Source of the DNA: Mycolicibacterium pulveris
GTDB lineage: Bacteria > Actinomycetota > Actinomycetes > Mycobacteriales > Mycobacteriaceae
Assembly: GCF_010725725.1 (NCBI RefSeq)
Contig: NZ_AP022599.1
Span: 3,596,001-3,660,000 of the forward strand
Length of the DNA: 64,000 bases
Direction: 5' to 3'
Below, one piece after another: positions 38,457 through 52,948 of the stretch. Both the position numbers and the translations under genes were made by a program. The number at the start of each line of letters is the position of its first letter. Within the stretch, counting starts at the first letter, position 1. Under the pieces are notes generated by a model. It saw nothing but the letters and a program-made list of their open reading frames with translations. It made no database searches and was not told where the DNA came from.

Positions 38457-40346
38457 GTGCCGGGACCCGTACGCGTCATTGTCGCGATATCTGCGCTGGT
38501 GGCAGCGGTAGCGGCGTGCACGGTCAGCCCGCCGCCGGCGCCCCAGAGCACCGACACCACCGAGGTGGCGGCCCCGCCACCACCTCGGCTGACCCAGATC
38601 ATCATGGCCATCGACTGGATCGGACCCGGTTTCAACCCTCATCTGTTGTCCGACCAGTCCCCGGTCAACGCGGCGATCAGTTCATTGGTGCTGCCCAGTT
38701 CGTTCCGCCCGATCCCGGACCCGAAGAGCCCGACGGGCTCGCGATGGGAACTCGACACCACCCTGCTCGAATCGGCGGAGGTGACCAACGAGGATCCGTT
38801 CACCGTCACCTACAAGATCCGGCCCGAGGCGTCCTGGACGGACAACGCCCCCATCGCCGCCGACGACTACTGGTATCTGTGGCGGCAGTTGGTCAGCCAG
38901 CCCGGGGTGGTCGATCCCGCAGGCTATGACCTGATCACCGGCGTGCAGTCGGTGGAGGGCGGCAAGACCGCGGTGGTGACCTTCTCCCAGCCGTATCCGG
39001 CGTGGCGCGAGCTGTTCAACGACATCCTGCCCGCCCACATCGTCAAGGACATTCCCGGCGGTTTCGCGGCGGGACTGGCGCGGGCGCTGCCCGTCACCGG
39101 CGGACAGTTCCGGGTCGAGACCATCGACCCGCAGCGCGACGAGATCCTGCTGGCCCGCAACGATCGCTACTGGGCTCAGCCCGCCAAACCGGATCAGATC
39201 CTGTTCCGCCGCGGCGGCGACTCCGCTGCGCTGGCCGACTCGATCCGCAACGGCGACACCCAGGTGGCCCAGGTGCACGGCGGGGCCGCCGCGTTCGCGC
39301 AGCTGTCCGCGATCCCCGACGTGCGCACCGCCCGCATCGTCACCCCTCGGGTCATGCAGCTGACGCTGCGGGCCCAGCAGCCCGCACTCGCCGACACCCA
39401 GGTGCGCAAGGCGATCCTGGGTCTGCTCGACGTCGATCTGCTCGCCTCGGTCGGCGCGGGTGACGACAACACGGTGACGTTGGCGCAGGCGCAGGTCCGC
39501 TCGCCGTCCGATCCTGGCTATGTGCCCACGGCGCCGCCGGCGATGAGCCGGGACGCGGCGCTGGAGCTGCTCTTCGACGCCGGCTACAAACTCGAGCCGA
39601 GCCAGCCCCCCTCGCCGGCCCCAGGCGCGCCGGCTCCCGACGAGGGCCGCGGACACATCACCAAAGACGGCGTGCCGCTTACCCTCGTACTCGGCGTGGC
39701 GGCCAACGATCCGACGTCAGTGGCGGTCGCCAACACCGCCGCCGACCAGTTGCGCAATGTCGGCATCACCGCGTCGGTGCAGGCGCTGGATCCGGTCGTG
39801 TTGTACGGCGAGGCGCTGGCCAACAACCGCGTCGACGCCGTGGTCGGATGGCGCCAGGCCGGCGGTGATCTCGCGACCGCGCTGGCGTCGCGCTACGGCT
39901 GTCGCGCGCTGCAGGCCACCGCGGTGGCGACGGCCCCCGAGAACCCAACCCCGGCACCGCCCACCAGGGGTGAACCGACCGAGCCGGCCACGACCGCACC
40001 GCCGCCGGAGCCGCCGTCGACCACGCCGACCGCCACGACCGCCGCACCGAGCCCGGAACCGCAACCGGAACCGGGTGAGCTGGTGCAGGCGCCGAGCAAC
40101 ATCACCGGCATCTGCGATCACAGCATCCAGCCGAAGATCGACGCGGCGCTCGACGGTGGGGAGGACATCGGCGACGTGATCACCGCCGTCGAACCGCGGT
40201 TGTGGAACATGGCGACCGTGTTGCCGATTCTGCAGGACACCACGATCGTCGCCGCGGGGCCCAGCGTGCGCAACGTCAGCCTGTCCGGTGCGGTGCCGGT
40301 GGGCATCGTGGGCGACGCCGGCAACTGGATGAAGTCACCGCAGTAG
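38457..40346 (+). CDS. lpqW: Lipoprotein LpqW, solute-binding-protein-like
   Basis: A 629-residue lipoprotein starting GTG 38457. The signal peptide ends with the lipobox V-A-A-C near residue 21. The mature part has the family 5 extracellular solute-binding fold (F-N-P-H-L-L near residue 61; [13 protein letters not shown] near 117). LpqW steers phosphatidylinositol mannosides between polar PIMs and LM/LAM in mycobacteria and is genetically linked to pimE. Unusual here: residues about 497-549 are a Pro/Thr/Glu-rich, likely disordered insertion (E-N-P-T-P-A-P-P through P-E-P-Q-P-E-P) within the C-terminal lobe, before N-I-T-G-I-C-D-H. Confidence 0.88.
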
Positions 40347-40422: not shown

Positions 40423-41718
40423 CTACTCGCTGTCGGAACCACCCCTCGAGTCGCTGCCGCTGTCACTCGAGTCGCCGCTGCTGTCGGCGCCACTGCTGCT
40501 GGGGTCGGTGTCGTCGGCGGCGTCGGAGTCCGCAGACGAGTCACCGCTCTGAGTGCCGGAACCCGCACCGGTGGTGTTGCCCGGAGTCACCTTGTTGCCA
40601 TCGGTGAGATCAGTTCCGCCGCTTGCCAACTCGGTTTCCTCCGTGGCCGCGGAATCATCGGTCTCGGCTTCCTCGTCGACGGCGGACTCGGTGGCCTCGT
40701 CGGCTGTTGCTTCCTCTTCCGTGACGTCTTCCTCGCTGGCATCGGTCGCCGTTGACGCGCCGTCCTCATCACCGCCGGCTCCCGATTCCGTGGCAGTCTC
40801 GACTGCGACAGCGTCTTCAGACGCCGCGGTGCTCGTGGACGCCGGGGTGACGTCGAGGCTCACCGTCCGGGCCGCCGAAGTCGCGGTCGCCGTGATGGCC
40901 GCCGTCTCCGCCGTCTCGGGCGTCGCCTCAGTCTCGGTTTCGGTTGCGGCCGCGGCCGTGGGCGGTGTGATCGCGTCGAGGATCCTGTCGCGAATACTCA
41001 CGATCACGCCGATGGCGCCGCCGTTCGGGCCGATCAACCCCGGAAAACCATTGGCGGTATAGCCGTTGATCACACCGTCGAGGATGGTGGCCGGTGCGTT
41101 GATGAACGCGTTGACCACGCCGTTGAAGTCGCCTGCGGCGAAAGCGTTTACAGCGTCCTGTACCGCCTCCGCGGTGGCCTGGAAAAGGCCGAGCGGCGGA
41201 CTGATCAGACCGATCCCGAGCAGAGGTATTGCTTGCGGGATGACGTTGATGACGGCCACCAGATTGTTGATCGGCGTTTGCAATGGCGGTAGCAGCGGCA
41301 GCGCGGCCAGGATGACGCCGGTCGACAATATTTCGGCGGCCTCTTGGAACTGTCCAGCGGCCAGTTGTTCAAGAGCCCTGTCGAAGGTAGCCGGGATACC
41401 GATGGGGTTGCTCGCCTCGAACAAGCCGTGTATCGCTGAGCCGAGATTCTGGACCATGGTGAGTTGGTTCACCGCGATCTGCTGCAGAATCGGCGCGATG
41501 CCTTCCTCGAAGATGTCGTTGTAGAGGAATCCCAGATTGGCCAGGGTGTTGTCCAGCAGCTCAGCGTATGTAGCGGTCAGGGTTACCGGCGCGGAGTAAA
41601 CCGTTGCTGCACTCTCAGGAATATCCGTTGCGGGCGGCGCTACCGGCGATACTGCAATGACGCCGGCGCTAATTAATGCAACACCTGTGGTGACGGTTGA
41701 GCGAACAGCGACTTGCAT
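40423..41718 (-). CDS. Exported acidic-tail protein, paralog A (GjpA-porin-like family name possible)
   Basis: Start taken as ATG 41718 (M-Q-V-A-V-R-S-T), with AGAAGGAG 6 bases upstream; a second ATG 6 bases earlier is too close to the ribosome site. The 431-residue protein begins with a signal-like segment (T-T-G-V-A-L-I-S-A-G-V-I-A-V-S-P-V-A-P-P). A hydrophobic, helical core follows to about residue 255, with A-P-A-T-I-L-D-G-V-I-N-G-Y and I-R-D-R-I-L-D-A-I. The last about 175 residues are a Glu/Asp/Thr/Ser tail containing D-G-N-K-V-T-P and ending S-D-S-E. Related mycobacterial proteins are sometimes named outer-membrane porin GjpA; I cannot confirm that here. Function unknown; probably envelope or surface. 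Confidence 0.8.
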   Translation of the reverse strand: MQVAVRSTVTTGVALISAGVIAVSPVAPPATDIPESAATVYSAPVTLTATYAELLDNTLANLGFLYNDIFEEGIAPILQQIAVNQLTMVQNLGSAIHGLFEASNPIGIPATFDRALEQLAAGQFQEAAEILSTGVILAALPLLPPLQTPINNLVAVINVIPQAIPLLGIGLISPPLGLFQATAEAVQDAVNAFAAGDFNGVVNAFINAPATILDGVINGYTANGFPGLIGPNGGAIGVIVSIRDRILDAITPPTAAAATETETEATPETAETAAITATATSAARTVSLDVTPASTSTAASEDAVAVETATESGAGGDEDGASTATDASEEDVTEEEATADEATESAVDEEAETDDSAATEETELASGGTDLTDGNKVTPGNTTGAGSGTQSGDSSADSDAADDTDPSSSGADSSGDSSDSGSDSRGGSDSE

Positions 41719-41724
41719 AGTCAT

Positions 41725-41732
41725 CTCCTTCT
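41725..41732 (-). promoter_or_regulatory. Strong Shine-Dalgarno AGAAGGAG for paralog A
   Basis: AGAAGGAG is 6 bases from the ATG at 41718 and decides this start. Comparable sites precede C (AAAAGGAG, 44113-44120), D (AAGGAG, 47164-47159) and E (AGGAG, 50195-50191). Paralog B has none at that distance. Confidence 0.75.
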
Positions 41733-42168
41733 GATAGCGCCGGTGACTGAGGCTTCACGGGAATAGTCAGAAGCGTAGAGCAAATAGATGTAAATCGAAA
41801 GTGCAATGGGCTCTTAGAGTTTCGTTTATCCAGCCAATACCTGACACACCGTCCGCAGCATGCAATTTAGGCAAACAATCGCTGGAATTCGGGCGTACCC
41901 GCAGGGATGCTTGCGGGAAGGAATCTCATTCTTGGCGTTGAGTTGCTGGATTTGCACGACGCTTCGAAAATCAACAGCGGGTCCCGCAGTAGTGCGCTAA
42001 AGAATGAATTGCTGTCAGTGGAGCCTTCGGTGCTCGGGCAGGAGGTGTTCTCGACCTCGCGCTCACGGACAGTCAATATCGGCAATCGCGCGGAGGGGTG
42101 ACTACGCCAACCGCCGACGAGGCGGGTTCGTGTGGATCAAGCCCGCTGGAAACGCGACCCACCCAGCA
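41733..42168. other. Intergenic region between paralogs A and B, no gene recognised
   Basis: About 435 bases with visibly lower GC than the flanks. It should hold the promoter of A near its left end, but no convincing pair of promoter hexamers was found. An open frame at 41867-42085 (minus) has no ribosome site and no recognisable product. The right end runs into the hairpin after B. Confidence 0.4.
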
Positions 42169-42199
42169 GTAGGCCTCCTCGCGATGCGAGGAGGCCTAC
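42169..42199 (-). terminator. Perfect 14-bp hairpin after paralog B
   Basis: GTAGGCCTCCTCGC (42169-42182) pairs perfectly with 42186-42199 around the 3-base loop GAT. It lies 20 bases after the stop of B. Stem stability is very high and there is no U-tract. Confidence 0.7.
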
Positions 42200-42218
42200 C
42201 GTGGTCAGGATTGGGTGG

Positions 42219-43337
42219 TTATTCGCTTGCACCCGAACCGGATCCGCCGTCGTCGCCGGCGTTCTCGGTGTCGGTGTCGGCGTTACCCGTGTCGGCACTA
42301 CTAGCGTTGCCAGCGGCGCCGACTTCGGCAAGCACTCTATTGGCCACATCGCCGAAGGTCACCTTGTCCGTGGAGTCGGCATCTTCAGGCGTACCGCTGA
42401 TGCCGCCGCCCGGCACCGCTTTCAAGCTCTCACGGATGTCGGTTGTCGTTCCGTCAGTGGCGTCTTCGGCTGGTTCCTCACTGTCGAGGTCCTCGGCTTG
42501 GTCGACCGATAGGGCGCTGACGTCGTCCGAACCGCTATCGCCTGCTGCGCCCTCTTGCGCGGCGACTTCCTCGACGTCGCCGGTTTCTTGATCTTCACTG
42601 CCGGCGCTCTGTGTCAACGGTGCCGGATCCTCCTCCTGCACAGCCGGTGCTGCCAGCGGGAAGTCGAAATCGGGCGGGCCGCCGATCGCGCCGAGAATGG
42701 TGTCTCGGATGGTCACCGGCACGGTAAGCAGTCCGAGGTTGCCCAACAGTCCGGGCGTGAAGGTCGGGTCGTAACCGTTGATAACTGCGTTGGCGATCAC
42801 TGCAGGCCCAGCGACAAGGGCGCCCAAGACCCCCGCCGGATCGTTGGCTTGGGCCGCGTCGATTACGCCTTGGATCGCTTGTCCTGTCCCCTGGAAGAGA
42901 GCGAAGGGCACCCCGATCAGTGGCAGCGCGCTGAGTGCGATCATTGTCGGGAGGGTGTCGACGACTGCGACCAGATTTAGTATCGGGTTGAGGAACAACG
43001 GAAGAACGGGGAACAGAAAGCCTGCGAACGCTGATGAGAGAGTTTCAAAGGCATCTTGGACCTCGGCGTTCTGGAGTTCGCCGATCGCGGTCTGCAGCTG
43101 AGCCGGGAAGCCGAACGGATCGTTGGGATCGAGGTAGTCAGCCAGGGCTGTTCCGGCGTCTTGCAGGTTTTCGATCTGGTTCTGCAAGATTCGCAGCGGA
43201 ATCGGCAGCAGGCCCGGTTCGACGAAGTCTTCAAGTAGCGACTGCAGGTTGGCCGCGGTGTTCGTGAAGAGCAGCTCGTAGGCCTCGAGCGGGTTGGCCA
43301 TCAGCGCCACGGGAGGGCAAACGATAGTGAGCCACAT
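42219..43337 (-). pseudogene. Acidic-tail paralog B, lacking the export signal (5'-truncated)
   Basis: The 372-residue open frame has the same core and tail as A, C and D: F-L-F-P-V-L-P-L-F-L-N-P, A-V-I-N-G-Y with P-G-L-L-G, then I-R-D-T-I-L-G-A-I, an acidic tail with I-R-E-S-L-K-A-V-P-G, and the end G-S-G-A-S-E. Homology starts abruptly at V-A-L-M-A-N-P-L-E, which aligns with V-N-L-M-A-D-P-V-E of D. The roughly 40 residues before it, including the signal, are absent. No signal-like segment is found in any frame upstream. GGAG is 12-13 bases before the ATG, too far to be a good site. It is probably a decapitated gene copy; if translated, the product would stay in the cytoplasm. Confidence 0.65.
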
Positions 43338-44057
43338 GGTGCGCGTTCGCTCCCATGTAGAGCACGTGATGTCCGACGCTTGAGGCCGCCACGACCGGTG
43401 TAGATTCCGGTCATGGCGCTTGATTGGCTCCCCTCACGCATGTCCTGCCGGTTACTTGGTTTGTAGGCGTGACACATGCGCAGCGCGCGGCGACAGCGAA
43501 CAGGGCAAGCTTGCCAAGCCGGAATGGGGACCCGGCCAGTGAAGCGGGGCGTCTGCTGCCGATGGGGACGAATCAACGCGATGGCTTTTCGCGCGGACGA
43601 ACTGGCCTCGTGCACGCGCTAGACCTGTCCCGCCCTGCAGGCGCCTCGCACCACACCGCGGTCTGATACGCGGCTGCAGGGGGCGGGATTCTCCCGACAC
43701 TGGGGGCTTGCGTGGTGGGCAACGAGCATTCTCCGCACGCAGAGATCGGCGCACGCAGTCCTTTGCTCAGGAACGGATTATGGATTCAAGATTTTGTAAA
43801 GGCAACGGAAGAGCGGCGAAATTTTAAGCCGCATCCGGACGATCCCGTCTCAGAGCATTTGCTAGCGAACGACCTCGGCGGGGCCTACGGAGCAGAGGGC
43901 GACTTGAGCCACGAGGCCTGGAGGCGGGCAGGTTCACCGGATGATTCGGCAAGGCGGTCCGTACCTGCGCATAGCGAGGGCAAAAGCGACCGGTGAGGTG
44001 CCCCCACCCCGCCAAGACGGCTCGAGATAATTCCGAGAGGAAATTTTTACCAAAGCG
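43338..44057. other. 720-base region between paralogs B and C, no gene recognised
   Basis: It separates the truncated start of B from the promoter of C, which face away from each other. The right third is AT-richer than the window. An open frame at 43712-43996 (plus, 94 codons) starts at a GTG without a ribosome site and encodes nothing recognised. No tRNA, inverted repeat of note or insertion-sequence end was seen. It may be debris from the event that removed the start of B. Confidence 0.4.
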
Positions 44058-44086
44058 TTAACAGTTAACTGACTCTGCGGTAACGT
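44058..44086 (+). promoter_or_regulatory. Promoter of paralog C
   Basis: TTAACA (44058-44063) and TAACGT (44081-44086) are separated by 17 bases. The predicted start near 44093 gives a leader of about 33 bases carrying AAAAGGAG before the ATG at 44126. The surrounding sequence is AT-rich for this genome, with a repeated GTTAAC. Confidence 0.5.
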
Positions 44087-44125
44087 GTGCTTGACACAGT
44101 CGTCGTCTACGTAAAAGGAGAAGCC

Positions 44126-45454
44126 ATGCAGGGAGCCATTCGCCCCTATCTCACCGCAGGGGTGGCTTTGGTTGGAGCCAGCGTGATCGCCGTCAGCCCG
44201 GTGGCGCCGCCGGTGCCAGACATCAAGGTTGGCGCAACGCCGAGCGTGAGTTCAGCGATGCAACTCGCCTCGGCCACCAACCCACTGGCCGCGTTGGGCG
44301 ATCTCTTCGGGAACACCGGAAACAGTCTTAACGGGCTCGTGCAGCAGGTCGCCGCAGATCCGGCGCCCATCCTGGCGCAGTTGGTCATCAACCAGGGCCA
44401 TGCCCTTCAATATTTCGTCGATTTGGCTCAAGAAGTCGGGGGGTTGCTTCCCGACATCGCCCAACTCATCCAACAAGCCGCCCAAACGATCGTCACGCAG
44501 CTGGGTGAGGGTGATATCACCGGCGCGGGACAGACGCTGAGCCAGACTCTGGTCTTCTCTGCACTTCCGCTGGCCGCCCTGTTAGTACCGCCGCTGAACT
44601 TCGCGTCGAACATCACGCAGAACATCGCCAACGTGGCCGCGGCTGTGAACGGCGAATTTATCTTCCAAGTGCTGTTGCCGGTCATCTATCCGGTCATGGG
44701 GTCGATCAACGGCGGGGCCGATATCCTTCAAACTGCCTACGATGCCGTCCGCGCGGGCGACCTCGTTGGCGCTGTCGGGGCGTTGGTCAGCGCCCCGATC
44801 GTCATGACCGACACCATTCTCAACGGCTTCGGCGATTTCGCGGGCCTGTTGACTCCGCACAACGCATTCGGTTTCAACGGCGGGATCGTCGCGTCGTTGT
44901 TGGGCTTCAGAACCTCGATCGCGGACGCGTTGAAGCCGATCTCGTTCCCTTACACGCCGCCTGATGTGCAATACCCGTCGGCGCTGGCCGCGGCGACGGA
45001 CGTCACCCTCAGTACCGAGGTCGAAGAGAAGGCCCCAGAGGCCGTCGGTGCATCCTCGGGTGAAGCCGAGAGCGGGGTGACCTCGCTGGCCAACACCGGC
45101 GGCACCGACGAGTCCGGAGTAGCCGGCGCCGAAGAGCAGGAAGGCGAGGCGCCCGAGGCAGAGGCGCCCGAGGAAGAGGCGCCCGAGGAAGAGGCGCCCG
45201 TGGACGACTCGGACGTCGATGGCTCCGAGGAAGACGCGGACGAAGACGAGAACGCCGGCAGCGGACAGATCCGCGAGAGCCTGGTGGCCGTTCCCGGCCA
45301 GACGGGTCTGGGTACCGGCGGCGACGACGGCGGCGAATCGGAGACAGCCAACACGCCGGCGAACACTGCCGGCGGCTCCGGTGACGACGGCGGCTCGGAA
45401 AACGACGGTGACGCTGGCGGCTCGGAGTCCGGCGGATCCGGCGGCGACGAGTAA
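44126..45454 (+). CDS. Exported acidic-tail protein, paralog C
   Basis: Start taken as ATG 44126 (M-Q-G-A-I-R-P-Y) with AAAAGGAG 5 bases upstream; the frame opens earlier at 44087. The 442-residue protein has the family signal (T-A-G-V-A-L-V-G-A-S-V-I-A-V-S-P-V-A-P-P-V-P-D-I). A core to about residue 275 has V-S-A-P-I-V-M-T-D-T-I-L-N-G-F and G-L-L-T-P. The tail has a Glu-Ala-Pro repeat (E-A-P-E-E in three to four copies), Q-I-R-E-S-L-V-A-V-P-G near residue 382, and Gly/Ser/Asp ending G-G-D-E. It is the only plus-strand member of the cluster and is followed by a 16-bp perfect hairpin. Function unknown. Confidence 0.8.
   Translation: MQGAIRPYLTAGVALVGASVIAVSPVAPPVPDIKVGATPSVSSAMQLASATNPLAALGDLFGNTGNSLNGLVQQVAADPAPILAQLVINQGHALQYFVDLAQEVGGLLPDIAQLIQQAAQTIVTQLGEGDITGAGQTLSQTLVFSALPLAALLVPPLNFASNITQNIANVAAAVNGEFIFQVLLPVIYPVMGSINGGADILQTAYDAVRAGDLVGAVGALVSAPIVMTDTILNGFGDFAGLLTPHNAFGFNGGIVASLLGFRTSIADALKPISFPYTPPDVQYPSALAAATDVTLSTEVEEKAPEAVGASSGEAESGVTSLANTGGTDESGVAGAEEQEGEAPEAEAPEEEAPEEEAPVDDSDVDGSEEDADEDENAGSGQIRESLVAVPGQTGLGTGGDDGGESETANTPANTAGGSGDDGGSENDGDAGGSESGGSGGDE
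45146..45200 (+). repeat. 15-bp tandem repeat inside the tail of paralog C
   Basis: Units at 45146-45160, 45161-45175 and 45176-45190 (GAGGCGCCCGAGGAA with small changes) are followed by a partial unit at 45191-45200. They encode Glu-Ala-Pro-Glu-Glu. In-frame gain or loss of units would change tail length without frameshift. Confidence 0.8.
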
Positions 45455-45469
45455 CCACGACAGGAACAG

Positions 45470-45505
45470 ATCGGTCCCCCTCCTGGTGACAGGAGGGGGA
45501 CCGAT
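45470..45505 (+). terminator. Perfect 16-bp hairpin after paralog C
   Basis: Arms 45470-45485 and 45490-45505 are perfectly complementary around the loop GTGA, 16 bases after the stop. It is the longest perfect tight-loop hairpin in the window. Confidence 0.75.
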
Positions 45506-45829
45506 TGCTGTGACCTGATCGGGTGGGCTGTGTAGCCCCCGACAGCTGTGATGCTCGGCTGAGCGTTTGCAGGGAGGTTGATGCCGCAAAGGGAAAGTCG
45601 GCACTACGCTGCGGCCTTCTTGATTGGTCACACTCGAAACGTCAGCTTCAACAGCAAAGTTCAAGTCCTCGAGTAAAAGGCTGCTAAGCCCACGCTTCAA
45701 GCACACGGCATCGCTGACGGCTACATAGCCATATCGCGCGTCGTCCAAAGCCAGCGGGTGAAGCCAGGGTATTCATCGACGATCCGTGCACGGCCAGCGG
45801 TGCGCTACGCGCCGCCGGAACACCGAAAA
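45506..45829. other. Region between convergent paralogs C and D, no gene recognised
   Basis: About 324 bases between the two terminators. No ribosome site plus open frame was convincing, and no repeat or RNA gene was seen. Confidence 0.4.
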
Positions 45830-45866
45830 GTAGGGGCCCCAAGCTTCAAAAGGAAAGGGCCCCTAC
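45830..45866 (-). terminator. Hairpin after paralog D
   Basis: GTAGGGGCCC (45830-45839) pairs perfectly with 45857-45866 over 10 bp around a 17-base A-rich loop. It lies 20 bases after the stop of D. Confidence 0.6.
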
Positions 45867-45886
45867 CTGTCTGCTACGGGATGCGG

Positions 45887-47152
45887 TTACTCGCCTCCGC
45901 CCGATCCGTCGTCGCCGCCGGAACCGGGACCGGAGTCGCCGCCCTCGCCGCCGTCAGTCGGTTCTGATGGGTCGGTGTCGACCGCGGTTTCGTCCAGATC
46001 GGCGCTCGCCTCGTCGGTGGGCGCAGAGTCCGACGTGATCGAACCGGCGTTCTCGGCGCCGGCCGGCGTCACCTTGTTGCCGTTGGTCAGCTTGTCACCG
46101 CCATTCGCAGTCTTGGTGGCGTCCCCGCGTTCCTCCTCGCCCTCGGATTCTGGCGACGCGGCGACGCCATCATCAGAGGACGTATCGTCCGCAAGACCGG
46201 CGTCGACGCTGGCGAACTTGGCGCCCTCATTGACCAGTGAATCTGCGGCCGTCAGGCCTTCGTTCGCGCCGGTATCGTCGGCGGCGGCGGGGGCCTCAGG
46301 CTCCGATGCGTTCGCCGTCGCCATGATCGTCGGGCTGATGGCGTCGGCGATGGCCTCACGCAGCGCGAGGAAATAGCCAATGGGTCCGGGTGGTGGTGCC
46401 AGCAAGAGGCCGGGAGGCGTGAGGAGCCCGGGCGTCTCGGGGAGGTAGCCCCCATTCAAAAAGCCGTCGGCCACCACGCCCGGCGCGTTGATCAGAGCGT
46501 TGACGATCTCCGTCGGATCGCCGCTTCCCGCCCCATCGATGACGCCCTGGATCGCGACCCCTACCGCGCTCGCCGTGCTGAGGAAGGGGCCGAACGTTGA
46601 AAGGAGGCTCCTAGCGCTGGTCAACTGACTTAGGGCGAGCTGGACGACGTTGTTCAGATTGTTCGAGGCGATCGCGAGCGGTGCCAACCCGGCGCCGACA
46701 ACGGCGAGGAATGGCTCTGTGAGCAGCAAGGGCACGCCCAACAAGCGGTTGACTGCAACCGCGACATCACCCTGGGCGAGGTCATCGAGCACCGTCTGGA
46801 GCAGTGTCGGTATCGCCTGGGTCAGCAAGATCAAGTACTCATCGCCCGCCGTAATCAGGGCCTCGACAAAACGCTCGGCGTTTTCCTGTTGGTTGGTGAG
46901 GATCTGCAGAAGGACCGGCGTCGGGTTATCCAGGTACATCTCGGCCAGAGTCCCGACGTTGTCGATCGATCGTTCGAAGAGTTGTGTGTAGAACTCGACG
47001 GGATCAGCCATAAGGTTCACCGCGGTCGATGCCGCCGGGGGCGTCGCAACTTTGACGTCGGGCGGTGCGACTTGAATGGGTGCGACGGCGATGGCGCCGG
47101 CGCCGAGGAGCGCGACCCCCGTCGTCAGAAGTGGCTTCGTGGCAACTTGCAT
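45887..47152 (-). CDS. Exported acidic-tail protein, paralog D
   Basis: Start taken as ATG 47152 (M-Q-V-A-T-K-P-L) with AAGGAG 6 bases upstream; the frame open to 47269 adds an unlikely basic leader. The 421-residue protein has the signal T-T-G-V-A-L-L-G-A-G-A-I-A-V-A-P. The core runs to about residue 285 with I-N-A-P-G-V-V-A-D-G-F-L-N-G-G-Y, P-G-L-L-T-P and A-L-R-E-A-I-A-D-A-I. The acidic tail carries L-T-N-G-N-K-V-T-P-A-G, matching the module of A, and ends G-S-G-G-G-E. It shares most with A in the tail module and with B around L-M-A-D-P. Probably surface or periplasmic; function unknown. Confidence 0.8.
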   Translation of the reverse strand: MQVATKPLLTTGVALLGAGAIAVAPIQVAPPDVKVATPPAASTAVNLMADPVEFYTQLFERSIDNVGTLAEMYLDNPTPVLLQILTNQQENAERFVEALITAGDEYLILLTQAIPTLLQTVLDDLAQGDVAVAVNRLLGVPLLLTEPFLAVVGAGLAPLAIASNNLNNVVQLALSQLTSARSLLSTFGPFLSTASAVGVAIQGVIDGAGSGDPTEIVNALINAPGVVADGFLNGGYLPETPGLLTPPGLLLAPPPGPIGYFLALREAIADAISPTIMATANASEPEAPAAADDTGANEGLTAADSLVNEGAKFASVDAGLADDTSSDDGVAASPESEGEEERGDATKTANGGDKLTNGNKVTPAGAENAGSITSDSAPTDEASADLDETAVDTDPSEPTDGGEGGDSGPGSGGDDGSGGGE

Positions 47153-47164
47153 GATGTGCTCCTT

Positions 47165-47784
47165 GCTAGACACGGTCTCAGGTACAGCAAAATTTACTCG
47201 TTCGTAAGTGGCTAATAGGAAAAACACGCGGAGTTTGTTGATGAACTTTCGACGGTTCTGCTTGAACATAGGTAACTGACACGTTCGTTTGGAGGTCGTG
47301 GGCGAATTACTTGGTGTTGGTGCATGCCCTCTCGACCGCCTCTCGGGGCGCCGCCGGCGTGAAGTTAGTCATTTCGTCACAAAGCAGAAATCAGCCCTTC
47401 AAGTAGGTGTTCTGCGCTGAATGTGCGTGGCTAATGGTCGGGTCTGATCCGGCAAAGTTGGACCGCGCTTCTCCGGCTAGGCGACTGCTGGCCTAACAGG
47501 CAAAGCGCAGATCTGGCGAGTCGGCCTTTGCTTTCGTCGCACCCGGCCGTGGTGAACAATGTCGAAAGCTCCGGGTGGACTATCCGTCTCGGTCGTTAGT
47601 GCTAACGAGACATGTCTATCCGAGCTAGTTCACAGCCAACGTGGTGACGATGGTGCCGTGCTAGAGCCCGGAGGCTCCAGCGAATTGTTTCGGTGCATCG
47701 CTGCGGGGCGGCGCCCAGGCGGAACTCCGCGATGGGTCGTGACTACGGGTGAATCGATGTCGCTCAGCGGGCAAAGTGGTGCGA
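47165..47784. other. Region between paralog D and mshB
   Basis: About 620 bases without a supported gene. It should contain the promoters of D and of mshB. A short palindrome CGTTAG-TG-CTAACG lies at 47594-47607 and could be an operator. The open frame beginning 47559 runs into mshB in another frame and has no ribosome site. M. tuberculosis carries PPE17/PE11 in this interval. Confidence 0.4.
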
Positions 47785-48660
47785 ATGGAAACCCCGCGGT
47801 TGTTGTTTGTCCACGCTCACCCCGACGACGAGACCATCGCCACCGGCGCGACGATCGCCCACTACGTCGCGCGCGGAGCCCAGGTGCGGGTCGTCACGTG
47901 CACGTTGGGCGAGGAGGGCGAGGTGATCGGCGAGCGGTGGGCACAGCTTGCCGTCGACGAAGCCGATCAGCTCGGCGGCTTTCGAGTGGCCGAGTTGACC
48001 GCCGCGCTGCGCGCGCTCGGCCTCAACGAGCCGATCTATCTCGGCGGCGCGGGCCGGTGGCGTGACTCCGGCATGCCCGGTACGCCCCCGCGGCACAGGC
48101 AGCGGTTCATCGACGCCGATCCGCACGAGGCCGTCGGCGCGCTGGTCGCCCACGTCCGTGAACTGCGCCCGCACGTCGTCGTCACCTATGACCCCCAGGG
48201 CGGCTACGGCCACCCCGACCACATCCACACCCACGAGGTGACCATGGCCGCCGTCGCCGCCGCGGCCGGCCCCGACTACCCGGGCGAGCCGTGGAGCGTG
48301 TCGAAGGTCTACTGGTCGGTCTTCGCCAAATCCGCCATGGCCGAGGGCTTAAGCGCGATGGGCGACGTGCCGTCTGACTGGATCCGGGTCTCCGCCGACG
48401 ACATGGGCTTCGGTTACCCCGATGAGGGGATCGACGCGGTCATCGACGTGGAGGAGCAGCTGCCTGCCAAGGTCGCGGCGCTGCGTGCGCATGCCACACA
48501 GGTCACCGTCGCCCCCGACGGGCGGTCCTTCGCGCTGTCCAACAACATCGCACTGCCGATCGGCGCGATCGAGCACTACATCCTCGCCGCCGGTACCGCG
48601 GGCGAGCGTGACGCCCGCGGCTGGGAAACCGATCTGCTCGCGGGACTCAACCTCCGATAG
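47785..48660 (+). CDS. mshB: N-acetyl-1-D-myo-inositol-2-amino-2-deoxy-alpha-D-glucopyranoside deacetylase MshB
   Basis: A 291-residue LmbE/PIG-L family zinc deacetylase. The zinc motif A-H-P-D-D-E is near residue 10, H-P-D-H-I-H-T-H-E near 145 supplies the third ligand, and [10 protein letters not shown] near 35 is shared with MshB. It removes acetate from GlcNAc-Ins in mycothiol synthesis in the cytosol. Start ATG 47785 ([13 protein letters not shown]). Location next to fbiC matches M. tuberculosis Rv1170-Rv1173. Complete. Confidence 0.93.
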
Positions 48661-48708
48661 CCGAGACGGTAAGCTGCCGACATCGGCCGCGCGTGGAAGG
48701 GACGACAC

Positions 48709-48816
48709 ATGGACCAGGACCTCGATCCCAACCTGCAGCACTGGCAGGACCGGTTCGACAACTTCCAATGGGTGATCGGTTCCATGGTGTCGCTGCTCGA
48801 CAGCATCCCGACCTGA
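48709..48816 (+). CDS. Small protein of 35 residues between mshB and a membrane protein gene
   Basis: Starts ATG 48709 with GGAAGGG about 7 bases upstream, 48 bases after mshB. The sequence has D-Q-D-L-D-P-N-L-Q-H-W-Q-D-R-F, then F-Q-W-V-I-G-S-M-V-S-L-L-D-S, ending I-P-T. It looks like an amphipathic helix with Trp and Phe on one side, plausible as a membrane-associated micropeptide. The competing frame over these bases (part of a longer frame from 48693) has poor composition. Its stop overlaps the frame of the downstream membrane protein. No family recognised. Confidence 0.55.
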   Translation: MDQDLDPNLQHWQDRFDNFQWVIGSMVSLLDSIPT

Positions 48817-48851
48817 CCCCACCGGCCGCCACCACCGGCGCTCTGCGCGGG

Positions 48852-49196
48852 GTGGTTCTGACATTGCTCGCGCTCGACGGCGTGCTCTGCGCGATCGCCG
48901 CGGCGTTCTTCCTGCCCATGCGCATCGGTTCGATTCCGTTCCCCGTCAGCGCGGTCATCGCCGGCGTGGTCAACGCGGCGTTGGTCTGGGCCGCGCTGCC
49001 GTGGACGTCCTCGCCCCGGGTCGCCGCGCTGCCGCTGTGGACCTGGCTGGGCACGATCGCCGTGATGACCCTGGGCGGGCCCGGCGACGACATCATCTTC
49101 GGCGGCGCCGGCGTGATGGCATACGCGGTGTTGCTGCTCCTGGTGCTCGGTGCGCTACCGCCCGCCCTCGTGCTGCGGCGACATATGCGGCCCTAA
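48852..49196 (+). CDS. Small integral membrane protein (Rv1171-like)
   Basis: About 114 residues with four predicted helices (V-V-L-T-L-L-A-L-D-G-V-L-C-A-I-A-A-A-F-F is the first). The start is uncertain. GTG 48852 places helix 1 at the N-terminus. A CTG at 48813 overlapping the stop of the small upstream gene is another possibility, and the frame is open from 48693. It sits between mshB and fbiC as Rv1171 does in M. tuberculosis. The function is unknown. Its stop overlaps that of the convergent gene (49193-49196). Confidence 0.65.
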   Translation: MVLTLLALDGVLCAIAAAFFLPMRIGSIPFPVSAVIAGVVNAALVWAALPWTSSPRVAALPLWTWLGTIAVMTLGGPGDDIIFGGAGVMAYAVLLLLVLGALPPALVLRRHMRP

Positions 49197-50185
49197 GCCT
49201 GGCCGCCATCCCCGCCGTCGCCGGTGTCTCCGGCATCGGCGTCGTCGCTTGGCGTATCCCCAGCAGCGCCGCCGGCTTCGGCGCCGTTGTCGCCCACCGA
49301 GGTGTCGTCGGTGTCGTCGGTCGCCTCGTCGTCGGTGGCGTCGACGTCCGAACCGCGGACCTCGCCTTGGGCGGCCACCGTTCCGGTCGTGGACGTCGTC
49401 GGCTCGATCTCTGCGAGCTCGTCGGTCTCGTCGGTCTCGTCGAGTTCGGGGGTCTCTTCGCCCTCGACGGTCTCGGTGGTTTCCTCGGTCTCTTCGGTGG
49501 TGTCAGTGCCCTCGACCGCCGTCTCTTCGGTGGTGTCAGTGCCTGCGGTGCCTTCAGAGACCGTCGTCTCGTCCTCGGTTGCTGCGGCCGTCTGCGCCAT
49601 CGCTTCCGTCGCGGGAGCCTCGACCGCCGTTTGCAGCGGTGGAATCGGCGGAAGGGGCGGGATGAGCCACCCGAAGAAGTACCAGAACTCGGCGACCGCG
49701 AAGTCCCGCACCGACATCACCGTCGTCGAGGTCACCGACTGCACACCGGTGATCCAGGTGTCGAGGTTGAACGGGTCGTTGACCACCGGGGCGACGAGAT
49801 CCACGACGAAGCTGTTGGCGATCGGCCGAGTCAGCGTGTAGTAGACCATGTAGATCTGATCGGCGATTTCGAAGCCGAAGCCGAACGGGATGAAATCGAC
49901 CAGGTACGCAGCGAGATCCACCCAGTAGTCCAGCCAGGGCAGCGCCCGGTACCACGCCTCGAGGATGGCGTCGCTGGCGGCGCTGAGCGCGACGGGTTCC
50001 GTGGGGGCGGGCACCGGTTGGGCCGCGGCCAGCAATTGGACGAACTGATCGGACACCGCGCGAACCGGACCGGCGGTGTGGGCGGTGGTCTCGGGTGGCG
50101 GCGCGTGTACGGGAGCAACCGCGATGGCGGTGGCTCCGATGACGGAGACCCCCGACATCAGGACAGACCTGACGGATACGGCCAT
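49193..50185 (-). CDS. Exported acidic-tail protein E at the PE12 position
   Basis: Start taken as ATG 50185 (M-A-V-S-V-R-S-V) with AGGAG 5 bases upstream; the frame opens earlier at 50269. The 330-residue protein has a signal-like start (M-S-G-V-S-V-I-G-A-T-A-I-A-V-A-P) close to that of A-D, but a different core: an aromatic, hydrophobic domain with W-Y-R-A-L-P-W-L-D-Y-W-V-D-L-A-A-Y and F-W-Y-F-F-G-W-L-I-P-P-L-P-P. The last about 130 residues are an acidic Thr/Glu/Asp tail. It lacks the N-terminal PE motif and the helices of the PE fold. M. tuberculosis has PE12 (Rv1172c) at this place, so the slot is conserved but the occupant is not. Function unknown. Confidence 0.75.
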   Translation of the reverse strand: MAVSVRSVLMSGVSVIGATAIAVAPVHAPPPETTAHTAGPVRAVSDQFVQLLAAAQPVPAPTEPVALSAASDAILEAWYRALPWLDYWVDLAAYLVDFIPFGFGFEIADQIYMVYYTLTRPIANSFVVDLVAPVVNDPFNLDTWITGVQSVTSTTVMSVRDFAVAEFWYFFGWLIPPLPPIPPLQTAVEAPATEAMAQTAAATEDETTVSEGTAGTDTTEETAVEGTDTTEETEETTETVEGEETPELDETDETDELAEIEPTTSTTGTVAAQGEVRGSDVDATDDEATDDTDDTSVGDNGAEAGGAAGDTPSDDADAGDTGDGGDGGQA

Positions 50186-50368
50186 GCGAGCTCCTAAGGT
50201 GCGTCGGCACGTCAACTGACGTTGCTGTAAATGTAGCGGGATTATTGCGCAGGACGGGGTGCGCGGCACGGCGAACTGGTGGGACTACTGTGGCCGGTAT
50301 GTCAGGCGTAGGCGTTTCACGATGTGAGACACGCGGATGATCCGGACCGACGCCGGAGTTACACGAGA

Positions 50369-52948
50369 GTGGCTCTGAACCCTCAGCGCGGCACCGACCT
50401 GCCCGATCCGGTGGTCCCACCGAACCCCGACGTGCCGAGTGCCACGGCCCTGCGCCGGGTGTTGCGCCGCGCCCGCGACGGCGTGGCGCTCAACGTCGAG
50501 GAAGCCGCGATCGCCATGACTGCCCGCGGCGAGGATCTCGCGGACCTGTGCGCCAGTGCTGCCCGGGTTCGTGACGCGGGCCTCGAAGCCGCTGGTCGAC
50601 GCGGGCCCAACGGGCGTCTGCCGGTGACGTATTCGCCCAAGGTGTTCATCCCCGTCACGCACCTGTGCCGAGACACCTGCCACTACTGCACCTTCGTCAC
50701 CGTGCCCGGCAAGCTGCGCGCCGCAGGCATGGGCATGTACATGGAACCCGACGCGATCCTCGACGTGGCACGCCAAGGCGCCGAATTGGGTTGCAAGGAA
50801 GCGTTGTTCACCCTCGGTGACCGTCCGGAGGCGCGCTGGGACGAGGCTCGGCAGTGGCTCGACGAGCGCGGCTACGACTCGACGCTGGACTACGTGCGGG
50901 CCATGGCGATCCGGGTGCTGGAGGAGACCGGCCTGCTGCCACACCTGAACCCCGGCGTGATGAGCTGGTCGGAGCTGTCCCGGCTCAAGCCGGTGGCCCC
51001 GTCGATGGGCATGATGCTGGAGACCACGTCGCGGCGACTGTTCGAGACCAAGGGAATGGCGCACTACGGCAGCCCGGACAAGGACCCCGAGGTTCGGCTG
51101 CGCACGCTGGCCGATGCGGGTCGACTGTCCATCCCGTTCACCACCGGGCTGCTCGTCGGCATTGGGGAGAACCTGACCGAGCGCTCCGAGACCATCCACG
51201 CGATTCGCCGCGTGCACAAGGAGTTCGGGCACGTGCAGGAAGTCATCGTGCAGAACTTCCGCGCCAAGGACCACACCGCGATGGCGTCGTCACCGGATGC
51301 CGCCTTCGAGGACTTCATCGCGACGGTGGCGGTCACCCGCCTGGTGATGGGGCCCAAGATGCGCGTGCAGGCCCCACCGAACCTGGTGTCGCGCACGGAG
51401 TGTCTGGCGTTGGTCGGCGCCGGTGTCGACGACTGGGGTGGGGTATCGCCGGTGACACCCGATCACGTCAACCCGGAACGGCCGTGGCCGGGCTTGGACG
51501 AGTTGGCCGCCGTCACCGCCGAGGCCGGCTACGACCTGGTGCAGCGGCTCACCGCGCAACCGCAGTACGTGCAGGCGGGCGCGGCGTGGATCGACCCACG
51601 GGTGCGTGGGCACGTCGACGCGCTCGCCGACCCCGACACCGGGCTGGCGTTGGACATCAATCCAACCGGGCGGCCGTGGCAGGAGCCCGACGAGGCATGG
51701 GAGTCATTGGGCCGCACCGATCTCCATTCGGCGATCGACAGCACCGGCCGGCTGACCGACACCCGCAGCGACTTGGGCAGCGCGTTCGGTGACTGGGAGT
51801 CGATCCGGGAGAAGGTGAACGAACTCGCCGCCCGCGCACCTGAGCGCATCGACACCGACGTGCTGGCCGCGCTGCGCTCGGCCGAGCGGGATCCGGCAGG
51901 CCTCACCGACGACGACTACCTGGCGCTCGCCATGGCCGACGGGCCCGCACTGGATGCCGTTGCCGCCCTGGCAGATTCGCTTCGGCGCGACACCGTCGGC
52001 GACGACGTCACGTACGTCGTCAACCGCAACATCAACTTCACCAACATCTGCTACACCGGATGCCGGTTCTGCGCGTTCGCCCAACGCAAGGGTGACGCCG
52101 ACGCGTACTCGCTGTCCGTCGAGGAGGTCGCCGACCGGGCGTGGGAGGCGCACGTGGCCGGGGCCACCGAGGTCTGCATGCAGGGCGGGATCGACCCCGA
52201 ACTACCGGTGACGGGCTACGCCGACCTGGTGCGCGCCGTCAAGGCCCGGGTGCCGTCGATCCACGTGCATGCGTTCTCCCCGATGGAGATCGCCAACGGC
52301 GTGACCAAGAGCGGGCTTTCGATACGCGAGTGGCTGACCGCGCTGCGGGAGGCCGGTTTGGGGAGCATCCCGGGAACCGCGGCCGAGATCCTCGACGACG
52401 AGGTGCGCTGGGTCCTGACCAAGGGCAAGCTGCCGACGTCGATGTGGGTCGAGATCGTCACCACCGCACACGAAGTCGGCCTGCAGTCAAGCTCGACGAT
52501 GATGTACGGGCACGTTGACAGCCCACGGCACTGGGTCGGGCATCTGCGGATACTGCGTGAGATCCAGGACCGCACAGGGGGATTCACGGAGTTCGTGCCG
52601 CTCCCGTTTGTGCACCAGAGCTCGCCGCTGTACCTGGCCGGCGGCGCACGGCCGGGGCCCACGCACCGCGACAACCGAGCTGTCCATGCGCTCGCGCGAA
52701 TCATGCTGCACGGCAGGATATCCAACATCCAGACCAGCTGGGTCAAGCTGGGCACCGAGCGGACACAGGTCATGCTGCGCGGCGGGGCGAACGACCTCGG
52801 TGGAACGCTGATGGAGGAGACGATCTCGAGGATGGCCGGCTCGGAGTTCGGTTCGGCCAAGACCGTCGAAGAGCTCACGGCGATCGCCGCGGGGATCGGG
52901 CGCCCCGCGCGGCAGCGCTCCACGACCTACAAGCCGCTGGCGGCCTAG
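50369..52948 (+). CDS. fbiC: 7,8-didemethyl-8-hydroxy-5-deazariboflavin synthase FbiC (CofG/CofH fusion)
   Basis: Start taken as GTG 50369 ([10 protein letters not shown]), which fits the length of mycobacterial FbiC (859 residues here); the frame opens at 50324. Two radical-SAM domains are fused. The first (CofG) has [10 protein letters not shown] near residue 95, the second (CofH) has [10 protein letters not shown] near 562. Together they make the deazaflavin chromophore F0 of coenzyme F420 from tyrosine and 5-amino-6-ribitylamino-uracil. Complete and highly conserved. F420-dependent enzymes such as the Rv1155-like protein need it. Confidence 0.96.

Follow-up and report, generated by a model that had tools for sequence, protein, structure and literature searches.

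Predicted exported proteins with charged tails in Mycolicibacterium pulveris have cores in common with PE and PE_PGRS proteins of slow growers

Introduction

The export module in front of a given cargo domain can differ from one mycobacterium to another. The lipase LipY presents one catalytic domain behind a PE domain, a PPE domain or a signal peptide (PMC7550000, PMC7028111), and the PE-PPE domain PF08237 is found in Rv1184c with a predicted signal peptide as well as in PE- and PPE-borne copies (PMC3037379). In this work, a window of 64,000 nucleotides from Mycolicibacterium pulveris (contig NZ_AP022599.1, positions 3,596,001 to 3,660,000) was analysed with respect to five genes, A to E. Genes A to D lie between lpqW and mshB, and E between mshB and fbiC. 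The cores encoded by these genes were found to be homologous to domains that stand behind PE and PE_PGRS regions in slow growers.

The origin and role of the C-terminal domains of PE and PE_PGRS proteins are a long-standing gap. The domain of PE_PGRS30 is described as comprising 306 amino acids (aa) and as homologous to that of Rv3812 (PMC7550000). A review presents the idea of PE/PPE proteins as outer-membrane channels (PMC12209268), and G. jacobaea has yielded a pore-forming protein (PMC4559739). An exchange between PE domain and signal peptide was not found described for PE12, PE_PGRS or GjpA in the open-licence literature, in which PE12/Rv1172c appeared in antigen papers and a gene table, with nothing on its core.

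Results

A to D were found to form one GjpA-like family. After removal of the N-terminus all pairs of cores were homologous, with phmmer E-values from 8.1e-10 (B-C) to 2.9e-38 (A-B) and blastp E-values from 0.003 to 9.5e-29, each value referring to a single comparison. The first-pass annotation, made from the letters of the window, had described the four as homologous exported proteins with long acidic tails, and this description was borne out: the N-terminal export motif was seen in A, C and D, and export is supported as a prediction from sequence. B lacks the module, none being present in the three frames across the 743 bases upstream of position 43337 (to 44080). This protein retains core and tail with no export signal. 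The core motif A-P-x4-[DN]-x2-[IL]-N-G had been attributed to all four members; it is present in A, C and D, and in B a G-P replaces the A-P.

No Pfam family was matched above cut-off by A to D, and the PE domain PF00934 was not found in A to E. The NCBI GjpA model NF033942 aligned with A, C and D over its first ~200 positions, and none of the four proteins reached its cut-off of 100 bits (Table 1). The source genome (5.48 Mb, single contig) is near Mycolicibacterium elephantis, with 89% identity in mshB and 96% in FbiC. It holds seven GjpA-like genes (A to D, L089, L090 and the partial L092). One of them is a full GjpA (L001), which likewise ends in an acidic tail and passed the cut-off with 363.9 bits. 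Among 118 sampled genomes, matches at E ≤ 0.001 were obtained in 84 and matches above the cut-off in 35, with up to 20 matches. The N-terminal module alone gave further matches in the source genome at L093/L102, L095 and L104, and the protein at L104 (1426-2631, +) ends in a glycine/histidine-rich repeat (GH-x-G) and not in an acidic tail. Three PE domains of this genome exceeded the Pfam cut-off of 22 bits, the third with 22.7, in a search that also gave a match above cut-off in one of 14 control genomes.

E has the N-terminal module of A, C and D and a tail of net charge -46, and its core is unrelated to those of A to D (hhalign 0.5%). The E core has one full-length match in the source genome. 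For the comparison of loci, 80 named mshB loci were fetched, yielding 70 complete lpqW-mshB gaps (window included) and 71 complete mshB-fbiC gaps, with L001-L005 left out. Slow growers were assigned from names and tree, and genes were called with our own caller, which misplaces starts and can miss genes. In the mshB-fbiC gap an E-type gene was called in 23 cases (two genes in one of them), a PE gene in 15 and neither in 33. All 39 E-core genes, 24 with a signal-type and 15 with a PE-type N-terminus, occupy the same strand of the same gap.

The two types of E core are homologous. The best blastp alignment between them showed 58.7% identity over 92 aa (9.7e-34), reciprocal profiles recovered 15 of 15 PE-type and 24 of 24 signal-type cores, and hhalign of the two profiles gave 99.9% (3.5e-36). 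The E protein of the window matched the PE-type profile, made from the PE12 C-terminal domain, with 1.0e-13 and 42.2 bits. An N-terminal PE domain was recognised by Pfam in all four PE12-like proteins tested. The M. tuberculosis PE protein P0220 (308 aa, 654 member sequences) was 54% identical over 92 aa (2e-31) to the signal-type homologue of M. aurum, and the E core was also found in two proteins named PE12 (P0151 and P0153). PE12 (Rv1172c), which lies at this place in M. tuberculosis, has the E core as its C-terminal domain, with gap and strand identical in the slow growers examined; it differs from E in that a PE domain replaces the signal module and in that no tail follows. A direct relation between the A to D cores and the PE12 domain was also considered, and none was found (hhalign 0.1-0.7%). 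In one database protein, P0230, a phosphate-permease-like part (PF01384) is joined to the PE12 core, probably through a rearrangement or an assembly error.

The same division was observed among public homologues, of which 274 were retrieved with a signal-type query and 138 with a PE query. Among the best 120 of each set, our own PE profile detected a PE domain in 0 and 112 proteins, respectively (111 for the PE query by the precomputed Pfam column). At least 40 aa follow the core in 118 of the best 120 from the signal-type query, whereas more than 9 aa follow it in none of the 112 PE-bearing proteins; one of the eight PE-less proteins among the best 120 from the PE query also has at least 40 aa after the core.

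In the tree of E cores the PE-type sequences form one clade (support 98/97). In the FbiC tree (73 rows) the 15 PE-type rows all fall inside one slow-grower clade of 30 (support 98), and the other 15 rows of this clade are without a called gene, which is not proof of absence since the gene caller can miss genes. Signal-type E genes are found in several other branches, and the common base of these is without resolution. PPE genes were counted at 19 of 23 signal-type and 14 of 15 PE-type loci. The counts were 2-9 in 18 signal-type genomes and 22 in M. trivialis, against 20-71 in 14 PE-type genomes, some of the latter being at least the value given. The E protein of M. trivialis has no charged tail and is signal-type despite the 22 PPE genes; this suggests that PPE genes had become numerous before the export module was exchanged.

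PE and PE_PGRS regions were likewise seen in front of GjpA-like cores. In genomes that have a PE12-type gene, 40 of 47 GjpA-model matches among those listed begin at model position 13 or later, and those of fast growers mostly at 1 or 2. Such a late start is a hint only: signal-type proteins of M. alsense (L205) have matches that also begin at ~25, and that of a PE protein (L195) begins at 1. Twenty stretches, picked mostly because the match missed the first model positions, yielded 29 open reading frames (ORFs) with a GjpA-like core: 22 with a PE domain in frame, two PE_PGRS proteins truncated by the end of the stretch or contig, four signal-type proteins without charged tail and one ambiguous case. 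Because of this selection, 22 of 29 is not a frequency. For one of the truncated proteins (L188), a longer stretch (L206) revealed the PE domain. Pfam recognised an N-terminal PE domain in eight of ten proteins with a GjpA-like core, the other two being signal-type, and five PE proteins scored 123.6-153.7 bits on the GjpA model, above its cut-off.

A profile of 17 PE-fused cores matched A (1.6e-14), B (4.6e-16), C (2.3e-12), D (5.6e-17) and the GjpA of the source genome (1.1e-21). At E ≤ 0.01 it recovered, from 1264 proteins, a total of 22 of the 25 GjpA-like ones already known and nothing else. The hhalign comparison of GjpA-like with PE-fused cores gave 99.8% (8.5e-29; control 0.1%). On a tree of 75 cores, built after two rows (L202|4627 and L203|3) had been removed by hand and four by the program, the PE label needs three changes, at least two of them forced; PE fusion to GjpA-like cores therefore appears to have arisen at least twice, and probably three times. 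Six PE-fused cores lie inside the true GjpA clade and fifteen in a PE/PE_PGRS clade, with L200 in addition; one core of the first group is 52% identical to the GjpA of the source genome over 88 columns.

PE_PGRS C-termini also show the core motif. A C-terminal GjpA-like domain was found in PE proteins of 844-989 aa from M. asiaticum (PGRS recognised by Pfam) and from M. simulans and M. szulgai (PGRS recognised by eye). The gene of M. asiaticum is one gene from pheT, with a PE-like gene between. PE_PGRS30 (Rv1651c), with its C-terminal domain of 306 aa, is located beside pheT in M. tuberculosis. Its domain is therefore a likely GjpA-like candidate.

The lpqW-mshB gap itself proved variable. GjpA-like genes (blastp cluster) were present in seven of the 70 gaps, namely those of the window, M. 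elephantis, CBMA 226, M. senegalense, M. setense, M. aquaticum and M. aurum, and in none of the 29 slow-grower gaps; the order A to D was seen at no second locus among those fetched. The lineage-specific arrangement proposed in the first-pass annotation agrees with this, and neither of the two outcomes named there as speaking against it, cores without similarity to one another or an unchanged set of the four genes in PE/PPE-rich slow growers, was observed. Other gaps contained a chloride-channel-like gene (24) or a TetR-like regulator (26), both named by eye. PE genes were present in the gap of several slow growers, including a PE/PPE pair in M. szulgai (Pfam) and a PE gene in M. angelicum, whose PPE gene was not called. 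The annotation's view of a locus that elsewhere holds PE/PPE genes is correct for some slow growers. As a mere occupation of one place by different proteins it is not supported, and the relation is partly one of homology, given the wide spread of the family, the GjpA-like cores behind PE and PE_PGRS regions in slow growers and, in the next gap, the homologous cores of the slow-grower PE gene and signal-type E.

A further core was found in this gap. In six Mycolicibacter loci it encodes a protein with a hydrophobic N-terminus and a domain that matches the C-terminal repeats of slow-grower PE proteins from the same gap and strand. Searched against 1264 proteins, the profile of this domain gave a best PE match of 2.6e-12, and all 15 matches between the six proteins themselves and E 0.39 were PE-type proteins of the lpqW-mshB gap. 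The comparison with the PE-fused form gave 95.6% (hhalign, 1.2e-8, 91 columns).

Three loci showed further peculiarities. In M. elephantis a shortened GjpA-like gene with an acidic tail lies between typA and lpqW (L006:1244-2089, -). An isolate of M. vanbaalenii has an E-type core gene in the lpqW-mshB gap instead of the mshB-fbiC gap (L018:2064-2915, -). In M. setense a pair of serine-recombinase and TnpB-like genes, identified by eye, splits the chloride-channel-like gene beside mshB (L030:7362-9211, +).

The tails of A to D comprise 140-178 aa with net charges of -30 to -43 and an Asp plus Glu content of 24-30%, confirming what had been noted for all four. The acidic excess in the last 100 residues averaged 0.02 (sd 0.06) over 839 proteins of at least 200 aa from the window and the fetched loci, L001-L005 left out. 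All 11 proteins with an excess of 0.20 or more were GjpA-like or E-type, and B of the window was next in rank; the tails are therefore not due to chance. They are not peculiar to the lpqW-mshB locus either, since the full GjpA and another paralogue of the source genome are also tailed and the charge varies across genomes.

Within a genome, the tail charge was found to agree across unrelated cores. For nine species with both families the Pearson coefficient was 0.97 and the Spearman coefficient 0.65; tails were acidic in the window species, M. elephantis and M. aurum, two of these three being sisters, and near-neutral in the other six. For the background composition of neighbouring proteins, r was 0.33-0.35 in the nine species and 0.54 in all 22 E-type species. 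The intraclass correlation over 80 GjpA-like ORFs from 27 genomes, picked for at least two listed GjpA matches and including one wrong-frame ORF (L166), was 0.73, a value reached in none of 5000 permutations. At core distances of 2-3, with L166 and L006|1244 dropped, the median tail difference per 100 aa was 4.6 for 73 pairs from the same genome and 11.8 for 2880 pairs from different genomes, pairs that are not independent. Close orthologues from other genomes differed by a median of 2.3, against 4.2 for the farthest cores of one genome. G088 and G077 were exceptions to the agreement. In six genomes (G013, G019, G063, G066, G071 and G094; L168-L185) the tails are weakly acidic, with a hydrophobic/aromatic ending that contains Asp, such as DWLGDFFGLFS. 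A secreted glycosidase-like protein of the source genome, named by eye (G000:C1:963387-964001; L097:142-2121, +), ends in a similar acidic tail, so that exported proteins with no other relation may have this kind of tail in common.

The predicted structure of the E core consists of three long helices at high confidence. It had no solved match, the best Foldseek E-value being 3.5, with one unrelated profile hit at 0.081. For C no sequence relative was found in the PDB (one hit at 0.24). A porin fold had been considered for C and was rejected on this ground and on that of a low-confidence model that is nearly all helix.

The features of the window are given in Table 1. The names of both boundary genes are our assumption, lpqW by synteny, and the small membrane protein next to mshB is presumably the counterpart of Rv1171. 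AGAAGGAG is located upstream of the start of A, for which two ATG codons are possible. A scan of the window against Rfam gave no family at gathering score.

Table 1. Genes and tails in the analysed window (positions count from its first nucleotide)
Feature	Position	Strand	Remarks
lpqW-like gene, left boundary	38457..40346	+	SBP_bac_5 140 bits
A, GjpA-like exported protein (predicted)	40423..41718/41724	-	ATG start 41718 or 41724; GjpA model 34.3 bits (cut-off 100)
Acidic tail of A	40426..40959	-	net charge -43, 178 aa
B, GjpA-like core with acidic tail; export signal not found	42219..43310/43337	-	GjpA model: no hit
C, GjpA-like exported protein (predicted)	44126..45454	+	acidic tail ~44999-45451; GjpA model 51.4 bits
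D, GjpA-like exported protein (predicted)	45887..47152	-	acidic tail ~45890-46324; GjpA model 44.3 bits
mshB	47749..48660	+	TIGR03445 467.8 bits
Small membrane protein, Rv1171-like	48693..49196	+	conserved neighbour, adjoins mshB in most relatives' loci
E, fifth tail-bearing protein	49193..50185	-	acidic tail ~49196-49627; 1e-13 to PE-type profile
fbiC, right boundary	50324..52948	+	translation used for the species tree

Discussion

The reading that is considered fairly probable is that of modular envelope proteins, whose cores later came to stand behind PE domains in slow growers. A, C, D and E would consist of three modules. The first is the export module that they share at the N-terminus, either a signal peptide or a signal anchor. 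It would be followed by a hydrophobic core of helices and, at the C-terminus, by a disordered tail, the charge of which tends to agree among the proteins of one genome. Two unrelated cores would be carried, GjpA-like in A to D and PE12-C-like in E, and B would be a copy minus the export module. The export module would pass the protein through the inner membrane, and the core would reside in or on the envelope. In the slow-grower lineage, rich in PPE genes, copies of the cores would have come behind a PE domain in place of the signal module, their export presumably passing to a type VII (ESX) system, with the core doing the same job in both forms. The E core would have been exchanged where it stood, so that PE12 arose between mshB and fbiC. 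GjpA-like cores would have undergone the exchange at other places, on at least two occasions, and would have become the C-terminal domains of PE and PE_PGRS proteins. Of this reading, the homology of the cores, the mutual exclusion of the two kinds of N-terminus, the clades and the tail statistics are observed; the order of events (signal peptide first), the export routes, the envelope location and the common job of the core are an inference.

A, C, D and E are most likely envelope proteins, and the likeliest job of the core would be an outer-membrane or cell-wall role, structural or as a channel; the pointer to a channel is the GjpA name only. The tail most likely interacts with something that differs in charge between lineages. 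A broader scenario can be offered tentatively, at somewhat less than even chances: as PE/PPE export spread in slow growers, the repertoire would have been re-routed piecewise, GjpA-like domains would give PE proteins the envelope or channel function credited to them, and the genome-wide tail charge of fast growers would reflect a common envelope partner.

Several observations weigh against the modular reading. E of the window is divergent, with 30% identity over 60 aa to P0220 (E 1e-4). The PE label needs three changes on the FbiC tree, because half of the clade is without a called gene. Signal peptides were assigned by inspection and from the presence of a hydrophobic stretch at the N-terminus, one of the 24 (L007) being ambiguous, and the scores of this stretch overlap between signal-type (1.63-2.43) and PE-type proteins (1.11-1.89). 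Of the five PE proteins with high scores, three have a GjpA match that runs into the PE domain, with overlaps of 4, 8 and 74 residues. The tree of GjpA-like cores is unrooted, its bootstrap was not settled and many PE rows have fewer than half of the columns filled. The AlphaFold model of C is poor (pLDDT 52), nearly all helix with one short strand pair. Finally, slow growers retain signal-type GjpA-like proteins (three in L205, one in L198), so that replacement there is partial.

That A to D are ordinary GjpA-family outer-membrane porins, with nothing further to explain, appears unlikely. The match of A, C and D to the GjpA model is weak but real, and the GjpA of the source genome is a family relative; on the other side, 34-51 bits stand against a cut-off of 100, B has no hit, and the model of C is, at low confidence, helical apart from its strand pair. 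The part of the literature examined does not state a pore activity for GjpA (PMC4559739), and E, the tails and the PE fusions would be left unexplained. It is also distinctly unlikely that tail and PE domain are functional equivalents, the tail holding the protein at the surface and becoming useless once a PE domain was gained. The residues after the E core would fit (at least 40 aa in 118 of 120 signal-type-query homologues, more than 9 in 0 of 112 PE-bearing ones), but charged tails are also missing from the signal-type GjpA-like proteins of slow growers (L205, L198) and from the E protein of M. trivialis. Tail loss therefore follows lineage and may precede PE capture.

The reverse direction, in which the PE-bearing form came first and the cores received a signal peptide and a tail in fast growers that were losing PE/PPE export, is judged very improbable. 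An outgroup was available on the FbiC tree only, whose base is without resolution, and counts of changes cannot separate gain from loss. Against it, signal-type E genes occur in several basal branches (a MAG group with L071, L078 and L082; L041; M. trivialis; Mycolicibacterium) and PE-type genes in one clade; five of the six Mycolicibacter rows are without a called E-type gene. In the GjpA tree, PE cores are also interspersed with signal-type cores on either side of the midpoint root, and in the E tree they are nested beside them, so that the reverse direction needs several parallel changes. Convergence of the two types from hydrophobic helical composition is scarcely conceivable. Both are alanine-rich and probably helical, and single-sequence scores between some members are weak. 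The GjpA-like, E-type and Mycolicibacter cores, however, gave 0.1-0.7% with one another in hhalign (a comparison of the Mycolicibacter with the GjpA-like core gave 23% over the N-terminal 46 residues), while each gave 95.6-99.9% with its own PE-fused form, and the E core shares position and strand between types.

Under the modular reading, the GjpA-like family is suggested as a plausible source of some PE-protein domains. If some of these are re-routed signal-peptide proteins, their function becomes open to study in fast growers, which are harmless and have the same cores without PE. The GjpA-like core is a concrete, testable candidate domain for the channel idea, and the tail charge common within genomes calls for a partner in the envelope.

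Compared with known systems, A to D are likened to the GjpA family by sequence alone and stay below the cut-off of its model. As with LipY, the cores stand behind PE in some species and behind a signal peptide, recognised by a hydrophobic N-terminus only, in others. The cargo of LipY is a lipase domain, whereas here two or three unrelated families of helical domains without known enzyme fold are concerned, one core being exchanged in place at a conserved locus and one captured at least twice. PF08237 offers the same kind of exchange; it is an alpha/beta hydrolase, and Pfam gave no match to it in A to E. Exchange of export modules is thus already known from LipY and PF08237, and the present case would be wider in reach.

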